The notes under the pieces were generated by a model. The model saw only the letters and a program-made list of their open reading frames with translations. It had not been told where the DNA came from and did no database searches. From NCBI GenBank assembly GCA_018648585.1, contig JABGQW010000014.1, positions 1-64,000 on the forward strand: a stretch of 64,000 nucleotides of DNA, given 5' to 3'. Each line of letters opens with the position of its first letter. Positions within the stretch are counted from its first letter, which is position 1. A program made the translations under genes and the position numbers. The DNA is from a bacterium. Lineage in GTDB: Bacteria; Patescibacteriota; Gracilibacteria; UBA4473. Shown in pieces: positions 26,847-28,067 of this stretch.

Positions 26847-26948
26847 TTCAAGAAAAACAACCGAAGAAAAAATTTTTTGTGACAACTTTTGTCGGGATTC
26901 ATTGTACTCGCCTTGCTTTTTTCTGCAAATTCCACTACACATAATCCC

Positions 26949-28067
26949 GTGAGAAAACAAAATATCGTCTTCGTTGGGTTTCGCGGCGCAGGAAAATCGA
27001 AATTTGGTCGTGCCGTCGCTCTCGCTGCAGGTTTGCCGTTTGCAGATCTCGATGCTGAAGTTGAATTTGTCCTCGACGAACCGATCGTCGATTTTGTGGA
27101 GAAACACGGCTGGCAAGTTTTTCGAGAAGTTGAACAGCGCGTGACACACGATTTTTCGCGGAATTTTTCGGGAGTCATCGCCACTGGTGGCGGAACAATC
27201 GAGAATTCGAAGAATCTTCAAAATTTGAAAAAAAACTCAACGTTTGTTTTTATCAACCCAAATTTTTCTGCGGTGAAAAAACATTTAATTGCAGAAGAAT
27301 CCAAAGGTCGATATCAACGAGTAAATCCCGCACTTCCGCTCGCACAAGAACTCGATCAATTGTGGATGCAACGAAAAGATATTTATTCTGCGACAGCCGA
27401 TTTGGAAGTCACTCCTGATTTTAATGGAAACCCAGAGGAAGAAGGGAAACAAATTCTCGAACAGATTTCAAAAACAAATTTTCCAAAAATTCCTCCCGTC
27501 AAAAAAATCGCCATTTTTTCCTCGAGAAATGGAAGTACGCTGCAGGGAATTTTGGATGCACAAAAAAAAGGAAGAATTCCAAATGTGGAACTCGAACTTT
27601 TTGTGACGGACAAAAAAGATGCCGGTGCGCTGAAAAAAGCGAAAGGAAATTTTCACCGCGTGGAAATTTTTGAACAGGACAAAAAAATGTCGCGCGAAGA
27701 ATACGATCGCGAATTGATGAATTTGCTGCGCGAAAATAAACCAGATTTAATTTTGCTCGCGGGCTGGATGCGAATTTTATCGCCACTTTTTTGCGAACAA
27801 TTTGGAAATCAAACATACAACGTACATCCGTCGTTGTTGCCAAAATTCGCAGGTTTGATGGGCGATGACGTGCATCGCGCCGTTCTCGATTCAGAAGAAA
27901 AATACACCGGCTGCACAATTCATCGAGTGAGCGCCACGGTCGACACCGGCGAAACGGTGTTGCAACGAAAAGTGCTCATCGACGAGCAGGACACCATCGA
28001 AAGTCTGCGCAAAAAAGTCCAAAAACAAGAAATTCTGGGATTTTGCGAAGCGCTCGAACGGCGGTAA
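26949..28067 (+). CDS. Shikimate-kinase-like domain fused to phosphoribosylglycinamide formyltransferase (PurN)
   Basis: N-terminal GFRGAGKSKFGRA, FADLDAEVE, ATGGGTI; C-terminal FSSRNGSTLQGILDA, LLAGWMRILSPLF, YNVHPSLLPKFAG, TGCTIHRVSATVDTGETVLQRKV; GTG start proposed. Confidence 0.88.
   Translation: MRKQNIVFVGFRGAGKSKFGRAVALAAGLPFADLDAEVEFVLDEPIVDFVEKHGWQVFREVEQRVTHDFSRNFSGVIATGGGTIENSKNLQNLKKNSTFVFINPNFSAVKKHLIAEESKGRYQRVNPALPLAQELDQLWMQRKDIYSATADLEVTPDFNGNPEEEGKQILEQISKTNFPKIPPVKKIAIFSSRNGSTLQGILDAQKKGRIPNVELELFVTDKKDAGALKKAKGNFHRVEIFEQDKKMSREEYDRELMNLLRENKPDLILLAGWMRILSPLFCEQFGNQTYNVHPSLLPKFAGLMGDDVHRAVLDSEEKYTGCTIHRVSATVDTGETVLQRKVLIDEQDTIESLRKKVQKQEILGFCEALERR

Follow-up and report, generated by a model that had tools for sequence, protein, structure and literature searches.

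The window analysed here is a 64,000-nt stretch of DNA (positions 1 to 64,000 of contig JABGQW010000014.1, assembly GCA_018648585.1) from a member of the Gracilibacteria whose genome we call G000. Its forward strand carries a gene in which a shikimate-kinase-like domain runs into PurN, with the following features.

26913..26941 (+): putative promoter, TTGCTT-17 nt-TACACA, found by eye and ending 7 nt before the start codon
26949..28067 (+): whole fusion gene, a single open frame of 372 aa with a GTG start at 26949 and TAA at 28065-28067
26949..27467 (+): shikimate-kinase-like domain, type II/AroL-like, residues 1-173 (PF01202, 101-102.5 bits; Foldseek)
26976..27002 (+): P-loop GFRGAGKSK, with Lys18 where coupled relatives (see below) have Thr (MtSK T17)
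27186..27194 (+): GGG of the shikimate pocket, G80-G82, intact in G000
27309..27323 (+): degenerate LID segment R-Y-Q-R-V, residues 121-125, replacing x-R-P-R-L
27468..27497 (+): short interdomain linker, residues 174-183, predicted to be ordered (AlphaFold2)
27498..28064 (+): PurN (GAR transformylase) domain, residues 184-372 (TIGR00639; PDB matches include 3p9x and 1c2t)
27819..27827 (+): PurN catalytic Asn291 and His293, equivalent to E. coli N106 and H108 (alignment with the E. coli PurN chain and the family)
27942..27944 (+): PurN catalytic Asp332, equivalent to E. coli D144 (same alignments)

No internal stop interrupts the frame from 26949 to 28067 (+), and the GTG at 26949 is taken as the start because family-wide conservation begins there and the in-frame sequence upstream (from a TTG at 26889) is not conserved. 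Pfam SKI matches residues 12-172 with 101 bits (cut-off 22.1) and Formyl_trans_N matches residues 185-368 with 144.5 bits (cut-off 26.1). The C-terminal half also passes the NCBIfam PurN equivalog TIGR00639 (159.6 against a cut-off of 150.1). The best shikimate kinase equivalogs of NCBIfam reach 87-90 bits against a cut-off of 186, but a coupled relative (G014) likewise falls below it and the shortfall does not decide the matter. Trp55 of the kinase half corresponds to MtSK position 54 and is a type II/AroL-like feature. The motifs quoted in the initial annotation (GFRGAGKS, DLDAEVE and GGGTI) are all found in the protein, and its description of a shikimate-kinase-like domain and a complete PurN in one reading frame is borne out by the open frame and the Pfam and NCBIfam scores. 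Two enzymes from unrelated pathways are joined in one protein, and the fusion is real.

An AlphaFold2 model built with 16 family sequences has a pLDDT of 89.9 and a pTM of 0.85, with block pLDDT values of 84-93 over residues 171-190, so that the linker is ordered in the prediction. These scores exceed those expected for freely oriented domains, and the model thus suggests that the two domains are held in a fixed arrangement. Using Foldseek, the kinase half matched shikimate kinases (3trf, 2iyq and 1l4u) and the other half matched PurN structures; none of the matches listed was a solved chain spanning both halves.

The fusion gene is divergent from an S-layer-homology-like gene (a call read from the sequence), and the locus is syntenic in many relatives. 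Operon context was considered as a clue to function and set aside, as the gene lies outside any pur or aro operon. The putative promoter was not reported by a strict sigma-70 scan, and similar elements (TTGNNN-17-TANANN) are found at a near-constant distance in most family copies, including L005-L014. Most copies have no clear Shine-Dalgarno sequence. This arrangement suggests leaderless mRNA and translation in the family, in which case transcription would start at about the GTG or ATG.

The fusion gene is present in all 20 genomes examined of this Gracilibacteria family (15 genera), which answers the question of whether related genomes carry it. Sixteen copies are intact, the window copy included, with 51-75% identity to the window protein, and the remaining four are interrupted only by contig ends (G005, G013 and G019 are split; G007 retains only the C-terminal end). 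On the contig carrying the G007 end, a stand-alone AroL-like shikimate kinase (L116, 4085-4684, minus strand) lies directly downstream on the same strand. A contig scan recovered 18 fused or contig-cut loci, nearly all from MAGs that carry the label Candidatus Gracilibacteria or Patescibacteria, and nothing fused elsewhere; its patterns came from the kinase half, and a diverged fusion could escape them. Among 380 sampled genomes of the phylum no full-length fusion match was found outside the family, and no description of an AroK-PurN fusion was found in the literature searched. An assembly artefact or a lost stop between two genes was considered and rejected: independent assemblies show the same continuous frame in sixteen intact copies, the gene is present in all 15 genera and synteny is conserved in many, and we regard the chance of such an artefact as negligible.

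Elsewhere in the class, the kinase occurs either alone or after AroA, and PurN occurs alone. The fused kinases form one clade in our tree (99/100), as do the fused PurNs (100/99), and since each half is monophyletic the sequences indicate that the fusion arose once, at the base of this Gracilibacteria family. No member of the family has dropped either half, though both kinds of redundancy occur. In two loci from other families of the class (L065 and L067) AroA (EPSP synthase) carries a shikimate kinase at its C-terminus, so within one class the kinase has been fused to more than one partner.

Per-family searches detected aroC and aroB in most members of the family. In 12 relatives that carry aroB and/or aroC (G003, G004, G005, G008, G010, G012-G016, G018 and G019, the last with aroC only in an 86% complete genome) the fusion is the only SKI gene detected, and hence the only candidate for an SKI-type shikimate kinase. 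Because of this, the ancestral protein was probably a bifunctional AroK-PurN enzyme. Three genomes (G002, G004 and G011) were rejected as examples of a native pathway, as their AroC sequences (L117 on G002:C41, L218 on G004:C47 and L226 on G011:C35) fall outside the native AroC clade of the family and so come from horizontal acquisition or bin contamination.

The window genome itself is different. The initial annotation had noted no other shikimate-pathway gene in the window, and this extends to the whole of G000 (99.8% complete), where per-family searches found no aroA, aroB, aroC or aroE; the one member of the EPSP family encoded there is MurA, which scores 447 bits (cut-off 392.7). Similarly, aroB, aroC, aroE and a second EPSP-family protein are absent from G006 (98% complete), G009 (91%) and G001 (76%). 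G000 does have purD and purH, and the fused PurN is its sole PurN, with no second AroK either. A second formyltransferase in G000 was examined as a possible PurN and discarded; it is Fmt-like, with 193 bits, slightly below the cut-off of 201.5. With no aro partners, purD and purH present and no other PurN, the gene content indicates that G000 needs the PurN half and does not need a shikimate kinase. We grouped the four pathway-less genomes (G000, G001, G006 and G009) with three that have a second, stand-alone SKI gene (G002, G011 and G017) as a decoupled set (n = 7).

Residues of the kinase half follow the need for the pathway. The LID Arg-Pro pair (MtSK R117-P118) is present in all 11 coupled genomes with both residues resolved and in none of the seven decoupled ones, where its replacements vary by lineage (YQ, RM, IP, TP and HQ); in the window protein the family alignment places Tyr-Gln at this position. 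The catalytic arginine sits in the RPLL motif, and Arg117 contacts the ATP gamma-phosphate and the product (PMC3646032, PMC7144000, PMC2593004). T17 is changed to Lys or Arg in six of the seven decoupled genomes, the GGG is destroyed in G006 (GHA) and G017 (GSS), and G009 has Ala in place of the P-loop Ser. In comparison, the equivalents of K15, D32, D34, R58, G79 and R136 are kept in all seven (0/42 cells lost) against a loss of 7% of cells at other conserved kinase positions. The window protein has all of the P-loop Lys, DxD, R58, GGG and R136 equivalents. The LID is flexible and its registration somewhat ambiguous, and because a phmmer alignment can register the nearby R124 with the LID arginine, some shikimate kinase activity may remain in the window protein. 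It is important to note that the seven decoupled genomes trace back to no more than two or three independent events (G000/G001/G002/G009, perhaps with G006, and G011/G017), so the association between residue loss and redundancy is a strong pattern with thin replication. Two non-catalytic stretches of the fusion, residues 67-75 (HDFxRNFSG) and 83-89 (TIENSKN), are nearly invariant family-wide, coupled or not, and are a candidate interface with PurN.

The PurN half of the window protein has its catalytic Asn, His and Asp (N291, H293 and D332), and we infer that it is active. In G014 and G002 the PurN half has lost N106 and D144 along with further invariant residues, and each genome has a second PurN gene. 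In G014 this second gene shares a 141-kb contig with two EPSP-family genes, of which one is likely aroA, and its product scores 130.8, under the PurN equivalog cut-off with PurN still the best family. The second genes of G002 could be contaminants; its AroC is foreign. The two dead PurN halves (L020 in G014 and L017 in G002) have M274E and S278T in common on different branches, possibly through convergence or recombination. Across the family, catalytic residues appear to decay in whichever half is redundant.

To compare selection on the two halves we used G000 and G001, both of which are pathway-less. With synonymous sites saturated, dN is 0.19 for the kinase half and 0.18 for PurN, indicating that between these genomes the kinase half is under purifying selection as strong as that on PurN. 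On a fixed tree, the summed terminal-branch ratio of kinase to PurN is ~1.4 in decoupled and 0.8 in coupled lineages (sums that leave out decoupled G002 and coupled G014). Judged by these ratios, the kinase half in decoupled lineages is mildly relaxed, not neutral.

We think it probable that the window protein is a PurN whose pseudo-shikimate-kinase half has been retained for structural reasons or for sensing a ligand. The one fusion event, at the base of the family, linked PurN to a type-II shikimate kinase. The resulting bifunctional enzyme would still serve both pathways in most relatives, and the shikimate pathway has been lost in G000, G001, G006 and G009. For purine synthesis, the C-terminal half would still convert GAR to formyl-GAR with 10-formyl-THF. 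The N-terminal half, with its LID Arg-Pro gone, would no longer be a working shikimate kinase, and may persist as a folded domain packed against PurN that contributes to PurN stability or acts as a nucleotide- or ligand-binding regulator. A precedent is plant SKL1, which lost RPLL and lacks shikimate kinase activity, with its P-loop and ATP site maintained by purifying selection (PMC2593004); the window protein has likewise lost the catalytic motif, with its fold and ATP site under purifying selection. What speaks against a pseudokinase is that the six pocket residues kept in every decoupled genome are more than a pure scaffold needs. A more specific proposal, which we hold only tentatively, is that the former kinase now controls PurN allosterically by sensing ATP or a metabolite, or else phosphorylates a new substrate connected with purine or one-carbon metabolism. 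If true, a chance fusion of two pathways gave purine synthesis a new control point that has outlived its source pathway.

The initial annotation had suggested that the kinase may have another substrate. This is possible, but a degenerated or repurposed pseudokinase fits the pattern better, as the relatives show an ordinary shikimate kinase ancestrally and the LID Arg-Pro is lost here. In its full form such neofunctionalisation would have the kinase half acting on a different small molecule in the pathway-less lineages with PurN merely attached, and the unchanged P-loop Lys, both Asp, R58 and R136 equivalents, the repeated change of T17 to Lys or Arg and the purifying selection all agree with it; plant SKL1 has been interpreted along these lines too (PMC2593004). 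We nevertheless find it unlikely. The varied LID changes, the loss of GGG in two genomes and the P-loop Ala in a third look like decay and not like one new specificity, and no operon partner points to a substrate. Somewhat less likely again is inertia, where the kinase half has no function and stays folded only because its 5′ end holds the promoter and start codon and PurN would suffer from misfolding at the N-terminus. A conserved promoter-like element does abut the kinase start codon, neither half has been deleted in any genome despite both redundancies, and the rate of the kinase relative to PurN is higher in decoupled lineages; however, the sparing of the six pocket residues relative to other conserved positions and the equal dN in both halves suggest more than a harmless passenger. 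Finally, the kinase half could still be phosphorylating shikimate that the cell scavenges, and the survival of most pocket residues agrees with this. G000, however, lacks the aroA and aroC genes through which shikimate-3-phosphate would be used, and it is precisely the genomes with no need of the kinase that have lost the LID Arg-Pro, so we regard this reading as very improbable.

The family is a natural experiment on the aftermath of fusing two unrelated enzymes. It includes genomes needing both halves, only PurN or only the kinase, and one (G002) in which both look replaced. The redundant half loses catalytic residues, yet in no genome has the protein been split or trimmed. With just two small enzymes, one can test here if such fusions can ever be undone and if an enzyme domain that has lost its activity takes on a structural or regulatory role. 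On a practical note, an aroK match in a reduced genome should not be taken to imply a shikimate pathway.

Compared with type II shikimate kinases (AroL/AroK, PF01202, EC 2.7.1.71), the window kinase has the same fold, P-loop, DxD, R58, GGG and R136 equivalents, and differs in being fused to PurN, in having lost the LID Arg-Pro and in lacking the pathway. The other half is like a standard PurN (TIGR00639) in scoring above the cut-off, in keeping N106, H108 and D144 and in having purD and purH in the genome, but it differs in having a kinase domain ahead of it in the same protein. Known shikimate kinase fusions include AroK-AroB and AROM. These, and AroA-AroK in L065 and L067, also join a shikimate kinase to another enzyme, but they combine steps of one pathway, whereas the window fusion combines two pathways. 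In PMC3602430 a shikimate-kinase-type enzyme domain is related to the transcriptional regulator BzdR, which suggests that such a domain can serve regulation. BzdR-type regulators (PMC3602430; NCBIfam PRK08154) share with the window protein a shikimate-kinase-type domain but are transcriptional regulators, and PRK08154 matches the window kinase weakly (54 bits against a cut-off of 204). The plant proteins SKL1 and SKL2 (PMC2593004) have an SKI fold without the RPLL LID motif, as the window kinase does, but unlike the window protein they are paralogues beside intact shikimate kinase genes and are not fused to PurN.
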